Virus record (IMG/VR): IMGVR_UViG_3300045971_000247
Location: 1-64,000 of that record
Direction: 5' to 3' (one strand)
Length of the DNA: 64,000 nt
DNA from: a virus
How positions within the stretch are numbered: position 1 is the stretch's first letter; each line of letters begins with the position of its first letter. Positions 2,364 through 33,484 of this stretch are shown here, in pieces. The translations under genes were made by a program, and so were the position numbers. Below the pieces are notes generated by a model, which saw only the letters and a program-made list of their open reading frames with translations, was not told the DNA's origin and ran no database searches.

Positions 2364-3509
2364 TCACTGGGCCACGTAGCAGGACAGCACGCCGAAGTCT
2401 TCGACGGTGTTCGCTTCGTAGATGGTCCCGAACTTCGGCTTCAAGAACCCGAGAATCTTGCCGATGGCGATGCCCTGGCTGTTCTCGTAGTCGAAGCCCT
2501 TCTCGTTCCAGTCCGGGGCGCCGATGTCGGCCATGCCGAGCGCCTGGGCGCCGCAGAACAGGATCTGCGAACCGGGCAAGTTGAAGCCAGCGCCGTACAT
2601 GCTCGTGCCGCTGATACCGGCCGACACGTTCGGCACGTGCCGGAACTCGTGCAGGTAGATGCCGTCGATCTTGACGCTCGACCCGGTGAACAAGGCGTCG
2701 TTCTTGTTCGTCTGCTGCGAGTGCCGCAGGTTCAGGTTGTAGTCGTTGTCGGCCTTCAGCTTGGCGAACGCCTGCGGGGTCAGGAACGCGTGGTACGTCT
2801 CTTCGCCGCCTTCACCGGTGACGCCGCGGATGTAGCGGTCCTTGGCATAGGCCTTCAGCTGCACGAAGGTCTGCCACGCCGGGAAGTCGCTGGTGGCAGC
2901 GGCGCCGGTGTTGACGATGGAGGTCTGGGTGTTGCTGCCCGAGGCCGAGTCCTTCAGCACCTTGTTGACGTTGTCCCAGCGCAGCATGCGCTTGGTGGAC
3001 GGGGCCGTCACGTCGTTGGCGAACTCCAGGTTGGCCAGATCGCTGCCCACCCGGGTCGAGCCGTTGGGGCGCGTACCGAAGGCCCGGCCGCCGAGGGCGC
3101 TGAAGGCCATCTGGTCGATGCGGTCGGCCAGCCAGTAGGCCAGCACGTCGCGGGAGTTGCCGCGGAATTCGACCACCGACTTCTGGTCGGCCATCTTGCC
3201 TTCGTGGCGGTTGGCGTGGCGCAGCTGGTCGATGCGGATGACCTGATCGAAGGTCTGCATCGCTTCTTCGTTGCCCTCCAGGGTCCGGTCGCCTGCGACA
3301 CCGTCACCGGTCAGGTCGGCCAGCAGCGTGATGACAGCGCGGGCGCCCTTCTCGGACTTCTTCAGTTCGGTGATGTGCTGGATCAGCGAGTTCGGGCCTT
3401 TGCCCAGGAACTTGTTGACGAAGGACATGTTGCGGGCCTGCTTCCACAGGTCCATCGACCAGACGGTCTTTTGCTCGGACGTGAGCAGCGAGAAATTGGT
3501 AACAGCCAT
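2364..3509 (-). CDS. Major capsid protein, N4-gp56/DUF4043-like (381 aa)
   Basis: This should be the shell subunit of the phage head. An N-terminal KFLGKGPNSLIQ segment, a central VVEFRGNSRDVLAYWLADRIDQ region with an arginine/histidine-rich R-H-A-N-R-H-E patch before it, and a G-A-Q-A-L-G-x-A C-terminal stretch are typical of the DUF4043/N4-gp56 capsid family with an HK97-type fold. The length fits that family. The ATG at 3509 has an AGGAG site upstream. It is preceded by its own leader with a candidate promoter, and the upstream sigma gene is cut off by a strong terminator, so capsid is probably transcribed separately at high level. Confidence 0.85.
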   Translation of the reverse strand: MAVTNFSLLTSEQKTVWSMDLWKQARNMSFVNKFLGKGPNSLIQHITELKKSEKGARAVITLLADLTGDGVAGDRTLEGNEEAMQTFDQVIRIDQLRHANRHEGKMADQKSVVEFRGNSRDVLAYWLADRIDQMAFSALGGRAFGTRPNGSTRVGSDLANLEFANDVTAPSTKRMLRWDNVNKVLKDSASGSNTQTSIVNTGAAATSDFPAWQTFVQLKAYAKDRYIRGVTGEGGEETYHAFLTPQAFAKLKADNDYNLNLRHSQQTNKNDALFTGSSVKIDGIYLHEFRHVPNVSAGISGTSMYGAGFNLPGSQILFCGAQALGMADIGAPDWNEKGFDYENSQGIAIGKILGFLKPKFGTIYEANTVEDFGVLSCYVAQ

Positions 3510-27752: not shown

Positions 27753-27976
27753 AGACGGCATACACGATGGAAGAAATTGCTGAAGACCACCCGCAGTGGA
27801 AAGCGTACGCCGCCGGCTACGCCACGACGGTCCTGAATGTTCTGGATGACACAGGTCTTCTAGACGAAACACAACTGCGTTGGCTCTCTCAGTTCGAAGG
27901 CTCTGCACGCGAAATCTGCAATCGCCTGATCGACGCCTACACCGTAGACGAAATCACCAAGAAACTCACCGCATGA
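27749..27976 (+). CDS. Unrecognised small protein (75 aa)
   Basis: GTG start overlapping the nuclease stop. Acidic helical protein with YTMEEIAEDHPQWKAYAAGY; no motif. Stop overlaps the helicase ATG (ATGA), so it is part of a chain nuclease - small protein - helicase - polymerase. Confidence 0.5.
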   Translation: MKTAYTMEEIAEDHPQWKAYAAGYATTVLNVLDDTGLLDETQLRWLSQFEGSAREICNRLIDAYTVDEITKKLTA

Positions 27977-29364
27977 AACCCTTCGCCCATCAACTCGTCA
28001 GCCTTAAGCACAACGAGACGACGGACATCGTCTTCGACTGCTCCGACGCTGGCACCGGCAAGACAGGCGTGCGGGTTTTTCGCTACGCCAAGCGCAAGAA
28101 GAAGAAAGCCGGCTGCATGCTCGTGCTCGGCCTGCGCTCTACGCTGCGCTCCGTGTGGGAATCCGACTTCAAGAAGTTCGCACCCGAAATCACGACCTCT
28201 GTAGCCACAGCCGCTAACCGCGAAGCCGCATTCGCCAAGGACGTCGATGTCTACATCACGAACCACGACGCAGTGAAGTGGCTGGCTAAGCAAAAGCCAG
28301 CGTTCTGGAAGAAGTTCGACGAAATCGTCGTCGACGAGTCGGAGTTCTTCAAGCACTACACCAGCCAGCGCAGCAAGGCCCTGCTGAAGCTCGTCAAGCA
28401 CTTCAAGTACCGCACGTGCATGACCGCCACGCCCAACGACAACACCATCGTGGACGTGTGGCATCAGGTGCTGCTGCTTGATAACGGTGCGCGACTGGGC
28501 CGGCTGTACTTCCCGTTCCGCAACTCCGTGTCCACGCCCGTCCAGGTCGGCCACAGTGCCAACATGGTTGAGTGGCGTGACAAGGAAGGCGCTGAAGACG
28601 CTGTGTTCGGTCTCCTGTCCGACATCGTGGTCCGCCACCGCCTGGACGACTGCGCCGACATCCCAGAGAACCACCAGTACCCGCTGATGTACGAGATGTC
28701 CACGCCACAGAAGAAGGCCTACATGCAGATGGAGGCCAGCAAGATGCTCGACCTGGGCAAGCTCGGCGGCGTCACAGCCATCAACGCGGCTGCGGTCGCC
28801 ACCAAGCTCCTTCAAGTCGCTTCAGGCGCGGTCTATGACGGTACAGGCAAATACGCCGTCATCGACACCAGCCGCTATGAACTCATCCTGGACCTCTGTG
28901 AACAACGCAAACACCCGCTCGTCCTCTTCCAGTGGAAACACCAGCGCGACCTGTTGGTTGCTGAAGCCGAAAAGCGAGGCAAGACCTTCGCGGTCTTCGA
29001 CGGCGACACCACCGACGAAGAGCGCTTCAACATCGTGCAGCGCTACCAGCGCGGCCAGTACGACGTGCTCTTTGCTCACCCCAAGACCGTCGGCCACGGC
29101 CAGACCCTGACCCGCGGCACCTCGACGATCTGGGCCTCACCCACCCACCTCGCTGCTCAATTCCTCCAGGCCTCGTCCCGCCAGCGCCGCATTGGCCAGA
29201 CGGAGAAGACCGAGACCGTGGTCATCATCGCCGAGGGCACGACTGATGAGTGGGTCTACGAGAACTGCATGCGCAAAGACGGGCGCATGAAGAGCCTGCT
29301 GGAGTTGTTTGCCGGGAACACGCCGGTGCCGACAAAGTCAACCAAGACGAAAGCCATGGCATGA
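27973..29364 (+). CDS. SNF2-type superfamily 2 helicase (463 aa)
   Basis: An ATP-dependent DNA translocase/helicase. Motif I is CSDAGTGKTG (Lys30), motif II reads VVDESEFF (DESE, a variant of DEAH/DEAD), motif III is MTATPNDN, motif V-VI is ...QASSRQRRIGQTE. Start ATG at 27973 is set by the ATGA overlap. It ends 4 nt into the polymerase start. Likely branch migration or replication-fork role. Confidence 0.85.
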   Translation: MKPFAHQLVSLKHNETTDIVFDCSDAGTGKTGVRVFRYAKRKKKKAGCMLVLGLRSTLRSVWESDFKKFAPEITTSVATAANREAAFAKDVDVYITNHDAVKWLAKQKPAFWKKFDEIVVDESEFFKHYTSQRSKALLKLVKHFKYRTCMTATPNDNTIVDVWHQVLLLDNGARLGRLYFPFRNSVSTPVQVGHSANMVEWRDKEGAEDAVFGLLSDIVVRHRLDDCADIPENHQYPLMYEMSTPQKKAYMQMEASKMLDLGKLGGVTAINAAAVATKLLQVASGAVYDGTGKYAVIDTSRYELILDLCEQRKHPLVLFQWKHQRDLLVAEAEKRGKTFAVFDGDTTDEERFNIVQRYQRGQYDVLFAHPKTVGHGQTLTRGTSTIWASPTHLAAQFLQASSRQRRIGQTEKTETVVIIAEGTTDEWVYENCMRKDGRMKSLLELFAGNTPVPTKSTKTKAMA

Positions 29365-32300
29365 ACTGGAAAACAGCCATCCGCAAGGCCACGCAATACA
29401 TCGTTCCCGAATTCGCTCGGCCGATCTTTCGCTCCAAAGACGTCGACTGGGACCGCCTCGTCTCCATCGACTTCGAGACGTTCTACGACGATGACTACAC
29501 GTTGTTGAAGCTCTCCACGTCGGAGTACGTGCGCGACCCGCGCTTCAAGGCGCAGATGCTGTACCTCAAGGTCGGCCGCAAGCCTGCCCGCATCATCCCG
29601 CCGAACAGAATTGCCACCGAACTGCGCAAGATCAACTGGGCCACACATGCGCTCCTCTGCCACCACACTCAGTTTGACGGTCTCATTCTTAGCCATCATT
29701 ACGGCGTCGTACCTTCTTTTTACTACGACACCCTCTCTATGGCCCGTGGTCTGCACAGCAACGAAATCGGTGCTGGGCTGGACGAAGTGTCCATGTACTA
29801 CGGCGGCGCCGGCAAAGTCCAGGGCGTCCTGGAGACGACAAAAGGCGTACTCAACTGGAGCCCTGAACTGTTCAAGCGGGTGACACCGTATTGCCAGAAC
29901 GACGGCGACGAAATGCTGCGGGTCTTCGAAGAGATGATCTACGCGCTGCCTGAAGAAGAAGTCGACCTCATCAACGTCATCGTCCGCATGTTCTGCGACC
30001 CAGTGCTGGAGATTGATCGGCCACGGGTCGAAGCCGAACTGGCGCGAGAGGTCAAGGAACGGGACGAACTGCTCACCGGCATAGTCAACACAGCCGCTTA
30101 CTACGAAGACAAGACCGTGCTGAAGACGAAGGCCGAACGCGCACTGGTCGGCAAAGAGCGCGACCTTCTGATCGCCAAGCGCATCCTGGGCAGCAACGAG
30201 AAGTTCGCCGGGCTGCTGCTGGACGAAAGCGTCGACCCACCTGTCAAGCTCAGCCCGGCCTGGATGAAGAAGGACAAAGCCGCGCGTGAAGCCGACCCTG
30301 AAGGCAAGTGGACCTACGCGTTTGCCAAGGACGACATCGAGTTCCAGAACCTGCCTGACGTTCAAGAACGGTGGCAGAGCATCTTCGACCTGAATGACAC
30401 CAAGCAGGTCAAGCTGGCCGCTGAGAAATCCATCCGCCTGCGCGCCCTGGTCGACGCCCGCATCGCTGTCAAGTCGACGACAAACATCACCCGGGCCGAG
30501 CGGCTGCTGACCGCCAGCACCAACGGCATGCGGCTGCCGGCCTACTACGCCTACAGCCGCGCCCACACCCACCGGCTGGGCGGCGGCGACAAGCGCAACC
30601 TTCAGAACCTGAAGCGCGGCGGTGAGCTTCGCCGCTCAATTCGCGCCCAGAAGGGCCATGTCCTGGTCGTCGGTGACTCTGGTCAGATCGAGGCCCGCAC
30701 AAACGCATGGCTGTGGCGCCAGGACGACCTCCTGACGATCTTCCGCAACAAGGGCGATCCGTACTGCGACATGGCCTCAGTCGTCTACGGCCGCATCATC
30801 ACCAAGGCCGACGCCACCGAGCGCTTCGTTGGCAAAGTTTGCGTCGCTGGAGACACCCTCGTATTGACAAACCATGGTGTTAAGTCTATCGTCGATGTAC
30901 GATCTAATGATATGCTATGGGACGGTACAGCATGGGTGCTCCACGACGGACTTGTCCGCCAAGGAACGAAACAAGTATTCAGAAGGCACGGCTTCGCCGC
31001 CACACGGGACCACGAAATCCTGACGGAACGTGGGTGGCAGGAGTGGTCCGCGGTCCTTACCGACCCTTCCCTTTTTCAGTCGGCGCTCAATTCGGCGACC
31101 TCACCGTTGTACGTTGGGAACACTACGTTTCCAGAGACGGGAAACCTTGGGGTTACCGGCCTGTATGCAGATGCACCTGCGGTGCTGAAAACATGGTCTA
31201 TGTCAGCAGCCTCAAAGCTGGCCGCAGCACTCGGTGCAATTCATGCGCCAAAGTCGCCGCCGCCACTAAACGCTACTGGGCCTACAAACACGCAATGGCC
31301 AGCGACGAGCACCGTACTCGGTTGCTCAATCGACTATCGTCAGCAATCGCTCGTTGTGCAAACCCCAACAACGCTTCGTACAAACATTACGGACTGCGGG
31401 GCATTTCAGTGGCTGCTGAATGGCGTGCAGATCGCGCAGCGTTTCTTATCCATGTTCAAACTTTGCCTGGATGGGACGATCCGACGCTTGAACTCGACAG
31501 AATCAACAACAGCGGCAATTACGAACCGAACAATATCCGATTTCGCTCGAAGGGCGCCAACATGCGCAACCGCCGTAAAGTCGAAGACTTGGAACAGCGC
31601 ATCCGCGACCTTGAGCGAGACAACGCAGACCTACGATCTCGCAAACGCAGGACCTAACTGTCGATTTACTGTCCTGACAGAAGCAGGTCCGCTGATAATT
31701 CACAACTGTGTTCTTGGTCTGGGCTTCCAGATGGGCGCCAAGAAGCTCCAGATGACCCTAGCCAAGGGCGCGCTCGGTGGCCCGCCGGTGTTCATCACCT
31801 TGGCTGAAGCCGAGCGCTGGGTCAAGCTGTACCGCAACAAGAACCGCAAGATCGAAGCCGGCTGGCGCATCTGCACCGGCATCATCGAAGACATGGCCGC
31901 GGGACGTACCGGCGCGCACGGGCCGATCAACTGGGAAGCCAACAAGGTCTGGCTGCCCAACGGGATGTGCCTGCACTACCCCGACCTGAAGAAGGCCGTG
32001 GGCGACCAGGGCTTCGAAGAGTGGACCTACGGATCGACCCTCAAGGGCACACCGATCCGCAAGAAGCTCTACGGCGGCCTGCTGTGTCTCGGAGCAGGCA
32101 CACAAGTCCTGACCGACAACGGCTGGAAATCTATCGTCGAAGTGCGATCTGATGATAAAGTATGGGATGGTACTAACTGGGTGGAGCATTCAGGTGTCAT
32201 CTACAAAGGCAAAAAGCAAACCATCGACTTCGGCGGTGTGCGCATCACCGCCAACCATGAAGTCCTCGTCGAGGAAACGTGGCTCCCCGCTGGATGCACA

Positions 32301-33245
32301 TCCCACAGTGCCGCTACATCATCGTGCGAAAGACATTACGGGGCTGCGACACGGTGCGCTGATAGCAGTGTCCCCGTGGGGCAGCAACGGAAGAAGAACA
32401 CTGTGGACACTCCAGTGCAATTGCGGAATGCGCATTACCCGTTCAGCAACCGAGTTTCAGAAAGGCCGCACAAAAAGTTGCGGATGCCAAACCTCTTCGC
32501 TCATCTCCTTCAGCATATCAACCCATGGCATGTCCAAACATCCGACGTTTCACGTATGGCGGGGCATGCTGGACCGGTGTCAACTGCCTACACATCAATC
32601 ATGGGCGCGATACGGAGGGCGGGGCATCACAGTATGCGCGGCGTGGAGTTCGTTCGCCGCGTTCTGGGCAGACATGGGCTCGACCTACAAACCCGGTCTC
32701 TGTCTGGATCGCAAAGACAACATGGCGGGCTATTCACCCAGCAATTGTCACTGGGTCACGTACAAACAGAACAGCCGCAACACTCGTGCTCAAGCACTTA
32801 TCAATACACCTATCGGGCTGATTCCGTTGTGGCAGGCGTCGGAAATTTCGGGAATCAACAGCTCCACTCTCTCCTACAGGCGGGACGCAGGATGGTCAGC
32901 CGAACAGATGTTTCTCCCCCCGAAGACGTCTACGACCTAGTTGACGCGGGACCGCTACGCCGATTTACTGTTCGTGGCGACGACGGCAGACCTTTCATCG
33001 TCCACAACTGCGAGAACATCGTTCAGGCCCTGGCCCGCATCATCGTGCTCTACCAGCTGCTCGAACTGAGCAAGACGTACCGTGTGGTCATGACGACGCA
33101 CGACGAAGGCGTGCTGCACGTGCCGAAGCGCCAAGCCGAGTTCGCCTTCCAACGCATGATGAAGGCGATGACGACGCCGCTGCCCTGGTGCGAGGATCTT
33201 CCGCTGTCCGCCGAAGGTGGGTACGCGGAGGACTACAGCAAGTGA
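29361..33245 (+). CDS. Family A DNA polymerase with 3'-5' exonuclease and two inteins (1294 aa precursor, 697 aa spliced)
   Basis: The replicative polymerase. ATG at 29361 overlaps the helicase stop. Exonuclease motifs: VSIDFETFY (Asp37, Glu39), CHHTQFDGL and YCQNDGDE. Polymerase: motif A VVGDSGQIEAR (Asp439), motif B RFVGKV then CVLGLGFQMG split by intein 1, YGGLL then CENIVQALAR split by intein 2, motif C TTHDEGVLHV (Asp1248). Intein 1 covers residues 494-782 and intein 2 residues 909-1216, so activity requires both to splice. Removing them restores normal family A spacing. Two HNH endonuclease genes overlap the inteins in other frames. Confidence 0.92.
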   Translation: MNWKTAIRKATQYIVPEFARPIFRSKDVDWDRLVSIDFETFYDDDYTLLKLSTSEYVRDPRFKAQMLYLKVGRKPARIIPPNRIATELRKINWATHALLCHHTQFDGLILSHHYGVVPSFYYDTLSMARGLHSNEIGAGLDEVSMYYGGAGKVQGVLETTKGVLNWSPELFKRVTPYCQNDGDEMLRVFEEMIYALPEEEVDLINVIVRMFCDPVLEIDRPRVEAELAREVKERDELLTGIVNTAAYYEDKTVLKTKAERALVGKERDLLIAKRILGSNEKFAGLLLDESVDPPVKLSPAWMKKDKAAREADPEGKWTYAFAKDDIEFQNLPDVQERWQSIFDLNDTKQVKLAAEKSIRLRALVDARIAVKSTTNITRAERLLTASTNGMRLPAYYAYSRAHTHRLGGGDKRNLQNLKRGGELRRSIRAQKGHVLVVGDSGQIEARTNAWLWRQDDLLTIFRNKGDPYCDMASVVYGRIITKADATERFVGKVCVAGDTLVLTNHGVKSIVDVRSNDMLWDGTAWVLHDGLVRQGTKQVFRRHGFAATRDHEILTERGWQEWSAVLTDPSLFQSALNSATSPLYVGNTTFPETGNLGVTGLYADAPAVLKTWSMSAASKLAAALGAIHAPKSPPPLNATGPTNTQWPATSTVLGCSIDYRQQSLVVQTPTTLRTNITDCGAFQWLLNGVQIAQRFLSMFKLCLDGTIRRLNSTESTTAAITNRTISDFARRAPTCATAVKSKTWNSASATLSETTQTYDLANAGPNCRFTVLTEAGPLIIHNCVLGLGFQMGAKKLQMTLAKGALGGPPVFITLAEAERWVKLYRNKNRKIEAGWRICTGIIEDMAAGRTGAHGPINWEANKVWLPNGMCLHYPDLKKAVGDQGFEEWTYGSTLKGTPIRKKLYGGLLCLGAGTQVLTDNGWKSIVEVRSDDKVWDGTNWVEHSGVIYKGKKQTIDFGGVRITANHEVLVEETWLPAGCTSHSAATSSCERHYGAATRCADSSVPVGQQRKKNTVDTPVQLRNAHYPFSNRVSERPHKKLRMPNLFAHLLQHINPWHVQTSDVSRMAGHAGPVSTAYTSIMGAIRRAGHHSMRGVEFVRRVLGRHGLDLQTRSLSGSQRQHGGLFTQQLSLGHVQTEQPQHSCSSTYQYTYRADSVVAGVGNFGNQQLHSLLQAGRRMVSRTDVSPPEDVYDLVDAGPLRRFTVRGDDGRPFIVHNCENIVQALARIIVLYQLLELSKTYRVVMTTHDEGVLHVPKRQAEFAFQRMMKAMTTPLPWCEDLPLSAEGGYAEDYSK
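30840..31706 (+). mobile_element. Intein 1 in polymerase motif B (289 aa)
   Basis: Starts with Cys1 (CVAGDTLVLTNHG, block A), block B is TRDHEILTERGW with Thr-x-x-His, block F is QTYDLANAGPNCRF and block G is GPLIIHN followed by extein Cys+1. All blocks are in the polymerase frame without interruption. Between about residues 68 and 255 of the intein the frame is open but shows no recognised domain, because that DNA also encodes an HNH endonuclease in frame +2. Confidence 0.93.
30917..31657 (+). CDS. HNH homing endonuclease nested out of frame inside intein 1 (up to 246 aa)
   Basis: Frame +2 relative to the intein. From residue 59 the protein has the layout of phage zinc-finger HNH homing enzymes: FGDLTVVRWEHY, a CRCTCG ... 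RCNSC zinc site, then SAIARCANPNN, YKHYGLRGISVAAEW and LELDRINNSGNYEPNN (Asp194) with IRFRSKGANMRNRR. The coding region begins 77 nt into the intein and stops 49 nt before its end, so it lies completely within it. The first ~58 residues overlap blocks A-B and may not all be translated; the ATGs at 30917 and 30932 lack good ribosome sites and GTGs at 31034/31043 are alternatives. It would drive spread of the intein at motif B. Confidence 0.88.
   Translation: MGRYSMGAPRRTCPPRNETSIQKARLRRHTGPRNPDGTWVAGVVRGPYRPFPFSVGAQFGDLTVVRWEHYVSRDGKPWGYRPVCRCTCGAENMVYVSSLKAGRSTRCNSCAKVAAATKRYWAYKHAMASDEHRTRLLNRLSSAIARCANPNNASYKHYGLRGISVAAEWRADRAAFLIHVQTLPGWDDPTLELDRINNSGNYEPNNIRFRSKGANMRNRRKVEDLEQRIRDLERDNADLRSRKRRT
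32085..33008 (+). mobile_element. Intein 2 in a conserved polymerase helix (308 aa)
   Basis: Cys1 (CLGAGTQVLTDNGWKSIVEV, block A), block B TANHEVLVEETW with Thr-x-x-His, block F VYDLVDAGPLRRFTV, block G GRPFIVHN then extein Cys+1 (CENIVQALAR). Flanking regions closely resemble intein 1: both contain near-identical DNA around ...TCTATCGTCGA.GT.CGATCT.ATGAT. The interior polymerase frame has no recognisable domain and overlaps an HNH gene in frame +1. Confidence 0.93.
32152..32940 (+). CDS. HNH homing endonuclease nested out of frame inside intein 2 (up to 262 aa)
   Basis: Frame +1 relative to the intein. From about residue 62: ITGLRHGALIAVSPW, a CNCG ... KSCGC zinc site, FHVWRGMLDRCQLPTHQSW, then RYGGRGITVCAAW and LCLDRKDNMAGYSPSNCHWV (Asp186). 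A C-terminal helix-turn-helix-like segment (PLWQASEISGINSSTLSYRR then GWSAEQM) resembles NUMOD-type DNA-binding repeats. It begins 67 nt into the intein and ends 68 nt before its end. Start uncertain: ATG 32152, 32167, 32257 or GTG ~32308. Confidence 0.88.
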   Translation: MIKYGMVLTGWSIQVSSTKAKSKPSTSAVCASPPTMKSSSRKRGSPLDAHPTVPLHHRAKDITGLRHGALIAVSPWGSNGRRTLWTLQCNCGMRITRSATEFQKGRTKSCGCQTSSLISFSISTHGMSKHPTFHVWRGMLDRCQLPTHQSWARYGGRGITVCAAWSSFAAFWADMGSTYKPGLCLDRKDNMAGYSPSNCHWVTYKQNSRNTRAQALINTPIGLIPLWQASEISGINSSTLSYRRDAGWSAEQMFLPPKTSTT

Positions 33246-33484
33246 GCGTCGCCGCGGGTGCATGGCCTGCGTGGGTCGAGATTTGGCAAGACATACACGA
33301 ATGCAAGACCCGCGTCATCGTCCACCACAAAACTCTGGAATACAGGTTCGTGGTCGACACCCACGCTTATCCATACAAGGAACTGCGCGACCACATCTAC
33401 GCGATCAAAGGCTCTCTCGTGCGTCAGCAAGGGATCATTGACGCAGTCACCAAGAAACTCACCTCCAACTCTGAACGACCATGA
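33242..33484 (+). CDS. Unrecognised small protein (80 aa)
   Basis: GTG start overlapping the polymerase stop. Sequence has AWPAWVEIWQDIHECKTRV and an LEYRFVVDTHAYPYKELR segment with a KKL end. No motif. Position suggests a polymerase-associated factor, unproven. Confidence 0.5.
   Translation: MSVAAGAWPAWVEIWQDIHECKTRVIVHHKTLEYRFVVDTHAYPYKELRDHIYAIKGSLVRQQGIIDAVTKKLTSNSERP

Follow-up and report, generated by a model that had tools for sequence, protein, structure and literature searches.

Nested HNH endonuclease genes in a shifted reading frame within predicted inteins of a phage DNA polymerase gene

Known endonuclease-bearing elements and the polymerase locus

Bifunctional inteins such as PI-SceI and the Mtu RecA intein carry their endonuclease in frame. 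In the composite model of their origin, endonuclease genes invaded mini-inteins and were then fused to them, and the invasion step is rarely visible. Group I introns of the I-HmuI type are likewise splicing elements, with a free-standing HNH ORF. Split inteins with a free-standing endonuclease gene between their halves have reportedly been described as 'fractured genes' (Dassa et al. 2009). The closest published precedent is the ShiLan domain or Pacc40 gp60 insertion (Arsenault, Gosselin, Gogarten 2025, PMC11855218), i.e., an out-of-frame HNH inserted in a phage methylase; its authors detected neither intein nor intron features in the ShiLan domain. A splicing intein with an out-of-frame endonuclease was not found reported in the open-access literature searched, and a prior description is not excluded.

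This study concerns a phage family-A DNA polymerase gene in a 64,000-nucleotide stretch of viral DNA (the window). The gene is a single open frame of 1331 aa that spans two inteins, each of which overlaps an HNH endonuclease gene in another frame (Table 1). Hereafter, the host frame denotes the frame of the polymerase (or helicase) gene, fam1 denotes the intein-1 type, with HNH in the host -1 frame, and fam2 denotes the intein-2 type, with HNH in the host +1 frame. Intein 1 is inserted in polymerase motif B at RFVGKV↓C...HN↓CVLGLG (arrows mark the intein boundaries); its Cys1 codon occupies 30840-30842, its His-Asn end lies at 31706, and Cys+1 is encoded by 31707-31709. Most of HNH gene 1 lies in the linker DNA between the Hint parts. 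The HNH 1 domain proper begins near residue 51 (~31067), and the start codon is uncertain, with 30917, 30932, or a GTG near 31043 as candidates. Intein 2 is inserted at YGGLL↓C...HN↓CENIVQALAR, with C1 and HN↓C within 32085-33011. Its HNH protein has a conserved core from ~32314 and a likely start at GTG 32308 or earlier; it differs from HNH 1, while the intein layout is the same and the relative frame is opposite (+1 vs -1). A search with 12 kb of the window found no near match among phages.

Table 1. Positions of the polymerase gene, its two inteins, and the nested HNH genes in the window
Feature	Position	Strand	Support
Host gene, phage family-A DNA polymerase ORF	29250..33245	+	PF00476 E=2.6e-9; phrog_17 E=5e-48
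Intein 1, host frame, 289 aa	30840..31706	+	Hint blocks, boundaries, AlphaFold, Foldseek
Intein 1 Hint N part (C1, LWDG..WV, TRDH block B)	30840..31109	+	AlphaFold pLDDT ~85-98; Hint-N profile iE 1.8e-30
Intein 1 host-frame linker, residues 91-253	31110..31598	+	pLDDT <50 nearly throughout; no conserved domain
Intein 1 Hint C part (YDL..AGP..FTV....PLIIHN)	31605..31706	+	Hint-C profile iE 4.4e-17; AlphaFold
HNH endonuclease gene 1, -1 frame vs host, 246 aa	30917..31657	+	phrog_374 E=2.2e-36
Intein 2, host frame, 308 aa	32085..33008	+	Hint-N / Hint-C profiles iE 1.8e-28 / 2.1e-13; relatives
HNH endonuclease gene 2, +1 frame vs host	32152..32940	+	phrog_374 E=2.9e-51; phrog_3377 E=5.8e-44; 14 relatives

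Between the two inteins, 30882-30928 and 32127-32173, both coding for Hint N, are 83% identical in DNA over 47 bases; common descent or gene conversion is one possible reading of this likeness.

With the ShiLan insertion, the elements described here share an HNH in another frame, a host frame open throughout, and a patchy distribution that suggests homing. However, ShiLan is without a splicing domain, whereas complete Hint halves flank the HNH gene in window-type elements, and its host gene is a methylase instead of a polymerase or helicase. The absence of a splicing domain from the host frame, which marks ShiLan, does not hold for the surveyed inteins, in which Hint blocks are present. When read in its alternate frames, the ShiLan gene matched neither of the HNH families studied here at a significant level. 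A separate observation is that ShiLan gp65 (L282, JN020143) has a Hint N match at host-frame residues 177-206 (iE 8e-7), to the Hint N part only, which is compatible with the separate intein reported for the methylase gene (PMC11855218).

The elements resemble PI-SceI and Mtu RecA in that Hint forms both ends, the endonuclease is encoded between blocks B and F, and the insertion sites are conserved motifs of essential genes. Unlike those inteins, their endonuclease is a separate ORF (-1 or +1) and their host-frame linker has no domain; the window inteins do not qualify as in-frame bifunctional inteins, their HNH lying in the -1 or +1 frame and their host-frame middle being unconserved and predicted disordered. 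They also differ from I-HmuI type introns, in that splicing is proposed at the protein level, no intron RNA is seen, and the host frame is open. Dassa-type split inteins likewise have the endonuclease as a separate gene, but the present inteins are in one piece and share their DNA with the endonuclease gene, which is read in a different frame.

A sequence-only reading of the window had described intein 1 before these analyses. Its boundaries for the intein held exactly, as did its placement of an HNH endonuclease in another frame at 30917-31657, now matched to phrog_374 and assigned to the -1 frame. Its statement that the middle of the host frame has no domain also held, with ~160 residues lacking structure or conservation in that frame. 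The spliced product of 697 aa that it gave, with intein 2 also removed, matches in size the product predicted from an alternative polymerase start at 29361 (1331 - 37 - 289 - 308), splicing itself being inferred. The single nested element it described proved wider than claimed, as intein 2 and many relatives repeat the layout. Its contrast of a nested, overlapping-gene element with known bifunctional inteins needs qualifying: out-of-frame HNH insertions have a precedent in ShiLan, and nested ORFs are annotated in APSE-1 and SO-1.

Hint fold, frame openness, and selection

In-house Hint-N and Hint-C profiles, built from the Hint ends of 18 relatives (intein 1 being a training row and intein 2 not), matched both window inteins and nothing else in the window. 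The match to a curated Hint profile was weak (TIGR01445, E=0.006, below cut-off), and Pfam gave no Hint in window intein 1 and only weak Hint matches in a few relatives. The AlphaFold model of the intein 1 host frame has pLDDT values of 85-98 over residues 1-90 and of 96-97 over about 260-289, most of both Hint ends being at 96-98, while nearly all of residues 91-253 stay below 50 (pLDDT 32-43). Foldseek matches of this model are inteins or intein-like domains, with gp41-1 and Ssp DnaB at the top and Mtu RecA among the others. By model prediction, window intein 1 carries a Hint fold, and its splicing is inferred. For the HNH 1 frame, pLDDT is mostly 83-97 over residues 51-246.

The splicing motifs are conserved across relatives. 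TxxH is present in all 102 distinct inteins, and a C-terminal xN↓[CST] is present in 101 of the 102, with a Cys nucleophile in 98; for L016, the script pattern matched an SNT ahead of the real end, which is HN↓C. The intein C-terminal end is preceded in relatives by VYD(I/L)..(A/C)GPR.RF.V... In an alignment of 37 inteins, C1, the terminal Asn, T55, H58, and block F D266 are invariant and H288 is conserved in at least 90%. Invariant intein columns fall within residues 1-66 and 266-289, one glycine excepted, and invariant columns of the HNH frame occur from residue 56 onward.

Relatives were found by HNH-based searches of IMG/VR and cultured phage records, and near-copies were removed by shared 12-mers; the resulting loci are nevertheless not phylogenetically independent. 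The layout recurs in more than 100 phage sequences. The host frame is stop-free through the HNH gene in 61 of 61 distinct fam1 loci (window included), where shuffling predicts 1.24, and in 41 of 45 distinct fam2-type hits, where synonymous-codon shuffling predicts 0.25. The remaining four fam2-type hits are HNH relatives that lack nesting in that frame, and all 41 fam2 intein loci are open. The third frame was never open in the tested loci, and 56 of the 57 non-nested HNH relatives carry stops in the equivalent frame. Given the low shuffling expectation and the stops in these non-nested relatives, openness of the host frame is selected and is not a by-product of HNH coding. Nor does it result from choosing open frames, since the loci were found via the HNH protein alone. 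For HNH gene 1 itself, the host frame was open in none of 400 synonymous-codon shuffles, with ~4 stops expected; together with the recurrence of the layout in 61/61 loci, this excludes a chance overlap.

Selection differs between the frames. Over 50 pairs of relatives, dN/dS was mostly 0.05-0.35 (about 0.1) in the HNH frame, mostly 1-3 for the same DNA read in the host frame, and mostly 0.05-0.3 for the Hint N part in the host frame. From the motifs, dN/dS, and AlphaFold it follows that the host-frame middle is a spacer, inferred to be spliced out, whose only evident constraint is the absence of stops. Dual coding is asymmetric and not full: the host-frame middle does not make up another functional protein and is an unconstrained linker that has to stay free of stops.

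A search by Hint sequence alone yielded 84 Hint stretches. A shifted-frame HNH match was found in 74 (3 of these being short remnants), 6 were classed as mini-inteins, and 4 lacked the C-terminal block (contig ends). An in-frame HNH was present in none of the 84.

Two findings that the sequence-only reading had named as able to refute it were not borne out. Lack of conservation of the other frame in homologues is contradicted by the HNH-frame dN/dS of ~0.1. A sequencing frameshift is ruled out because the relative frame is constant across independent contigs (61 fam1 and 41 fam2 loci) and several cultured phages. Its proposed comparison of the intein frame with Hint profiles gave the weak curated match reported above, with the Hint fold predicted confidently from the ends. 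Its central claim, that one stretch of DNA carries both a splicing segment and a separate endonuclease, is supported, with splicing and endonuclease activity remaining inferences.

Translation of the nested gene and rival explanations

How the HNH protein is translated differs in clarity between the families. In fam2, the HNH frame is usually stopped just upstream, in the block B coding region, and opens within ~22 nt after the TxxH codon in most loci. Counted from the TxxH codon, the start (ATG/GTG) lies at +40 nt or, in other cases, at +25 or +58 nt. Among the 38 loci with a start, 35 show a correctly placed Shine-Dalgarno match of at least 4 nt, against a background of 27%. This excess is somewhat overstated, because the best of several starts was taken without correction. 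Intein 2 of the window is one of the 3 of 38 fam2 loci without a Shine-Dalgarno match at the likely HNH start. Separate internal initiation is thus well supported in fam2, with HNH translation itself being inferred. In fam1, the open HNH frame reaches upstream across much of the Hint N coding region. In a 25-locus subset, an ATG lies at -64 and is preceded, at a distance of 5-10 nt, by a Shine-Dalgarno-like site within the sequence that codes for Hint N; no start codon in window intein 1, 30917 and 30932 included, has a convincing Shine-Dalgarno site. Separate internal initiation is likely in fam1, although it has not been shown. A conserved -1 slippery site was considered for fam1 and rejected; slippery heptamers occur in the relevant stretch of only 12 of 57 loci, at scattered positions.

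Nuclease activity of the HNH proteins cannot be assumed, because, as far as a weak alignment shows, Arg ('DRI') stands in place of the first catalytic His in all nested HNH proteins aligned. D194 and R195 (window 31496-31501 in HNH 1) are invariant in fam1 rows, and the Arg is invariant in fam2 rows. The equivalence of 'DRI' with 'DHK' of I-HmuI rests on a weak alignment (E=0.28). The HNH fold gave no significant Foldseek match in the PDB, and its structural VIA-align rows concern mostly an SH3/tudor-like N part at low Z.

The best explanation, held with high confidence, is an intein that can splice and whose splice linker contains a separately translated gene for the homing endonuclease; splicing, HNH translation, cleavage, and homing are inferred. 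Ribosomes in the polymerase frame would produce a precursor with two Hint domains, each split by a long unstructured linker, and the Hint halves would fold and splice out, restoring the polymerase. Ribosomes starting at an internal ATG or GTG would read the linker in the shifted frame and make a free-standing HNH endonuclease. This enzyme would cut intein-less host alleles, repair of which would copy the element in, and deletions that keep the host frame may then remove the HNH gene and leave mini-inteins.

The most serious rival is a Hint-HNH fusion made by programmed ribosomal frameshifting, i.e., a bifunctional intein with a built-in shift. It is consistent with the upstream-open HNH frame of fam1 and with the lack of a good Shine-Dalgarno site at the window starts. 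However, the scarcity and scatter of -1 slippery heptamers in fam1 speak against it, as do the late opening of most fam2 HNH frames, followed by a start codon with a Shine-Dalgarno site, and the opposite relative frames of fam1 and fam2. It is considered unlikely and is not formally excluded. An unspliced out-of-frame HNH insertion, with the Hint-like ends as relics, has a precedent in ShiLan (PMC11855218), which shows that such insertions exist. This is less probable still. The Hint ends are under purifying selection, and almost all of the 102 inteins retain the splice residues; moreover, the inserts interrupt conserved polymerase motifs, and 289-308 aa left unspliced at such sites would presumably destroy the enzyme.

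Two further rivals can be all but set aside. The first is a self-splicing intron bearing an HNH ORF. The SO-1 record suggests it ('type I self-splicing intron', gp38/gp39), and group I introns commonly carry HNH ORFs in other frames. However, the host frame is open through the insert and conserved Hint protein motifs stand at both ends. Group I and II introns were rejected, as Rfam models matched neither window positions 29200-33300, with E values up to 1 allowed, nor any of eight relatives at the gathering threshold, one of them SO-1. That the HNH frame is a dead remnant, or that assembly frameshifts created the two frames, is suggested by some decayed members (L026, L022, and the mini-inteins). 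Against a dead remnant stands the HNH-frame conservation over 50 pairs, and against assembly errors the constant frame relation in independent contigs and cultured phages; for the family, the stop-avoidance counts and dN/dS refute this reading.

Host genes, cultured phages, and empty or decayed copies

Both intein sites are empty in Pseudomonas phages KPP25 and phiR18, as their polymerases align in one piece with the intein-free window sequence across both junctions. Intein 1 is present in L003 and L004, and intein 2 is absent from them, because the polymerase match runs unbroken over the intein-2 site (query residues 122/123-328). L026 and L022 are decayed members, as are the mini-inteins. 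For example, the intein-2 site of the close relative L262 is occupied by a mini-intein in which the HNH start survives as an out-of-frame scar, 'LHHRSRDITGHRHSH', and the Hint of L262 groups with window intein 2 in a tree (100/99). Pieces of HNH sequence in a shifted frame are also found in mini-inteins L192, L204, L249, and L263. Mini-inteins are scattered over the Hint tree, which suggests repeated loss of HNH; the tree is based on 94 columns, so that many of its forks are unresolved.

Several polymerase insertion sites are used, namely, RFVGK(V/T)↓C.LG, LG↓CGYG, YGGKL↓CEN, and AEN↓CTQ. A second host gene is the phrog_62 helicase, established by testing for L134, L137, and L139 and by similar site sequence for L132 and L145. 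A third HNH type, in the +1 frame and with a separate Hint clade, occurs in Streptococcus phage Javan107 (L271, ~2500-3460) and in L267 (861-1820). Cultured examples include Salmonella phage Ent1, Escherichia phage fPoEco01, Vibrio phage 97.13, APSE-1, Shewanella phage SFCi1, Caulobacter phage GB2A, and Sodalis phage SO-1. Cultured phages that infect Salmonella, Escherichia, Sodalis, Vibrio, Hamiltonella, Shewanella, and Caulobacter keep the relation between the two frames constant. The intein-1 HNH is covered to at least 80% by 179 phage records, several of which are annotated as inteins without an endonuclease. The fam1 intein in Ent1 gp37, for example, is annotated as 'encoding splicing domains', with no endonuclease. 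APSE-1, where P46 is annotated inside P45, has the same element (fam2), as does Sodalis phage SO-1 (fam1; gp38/gp39, L270, GQ502199.1; 1094-4282, 2578-3336), for which the record instead describes a polymerase that has a type I self-splicing intron.

A bolder reading, which is considered probable, is that these elements belong to a widespread class of mobile inteins whose homing endonuclease is not an intein domain but an independently translated overlapping gene in the splice linker; the class would span two or more phage genes and three or more HNH types. If so, it may be a stable alternative to bifunctional inteins of the textbook kind, or an intermediate toward them, and inteins that databases label 'mini' or 'domainless' may hide endonucleases. 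Reading an intein in a single frame misses the endonuclease. The family shows an endonuclease gene inside an intein and yet unfused, and its copies in related phages include empty, full, and decayed ones. It is also a large natural set of overlapping genes in which, over the middle, one frame is constrained mainly not to stop. The cultured phages of Caulobacter, Shewanella, and E. coli make the layout testable.

A helicase gene (phrog_62) at 27880-29364 adjoins the polymerase gene in the window and is without an intein; the site that is empty there is occupied by the same kind of intein in such helicases of L132, L134, L137, L139, and L145.
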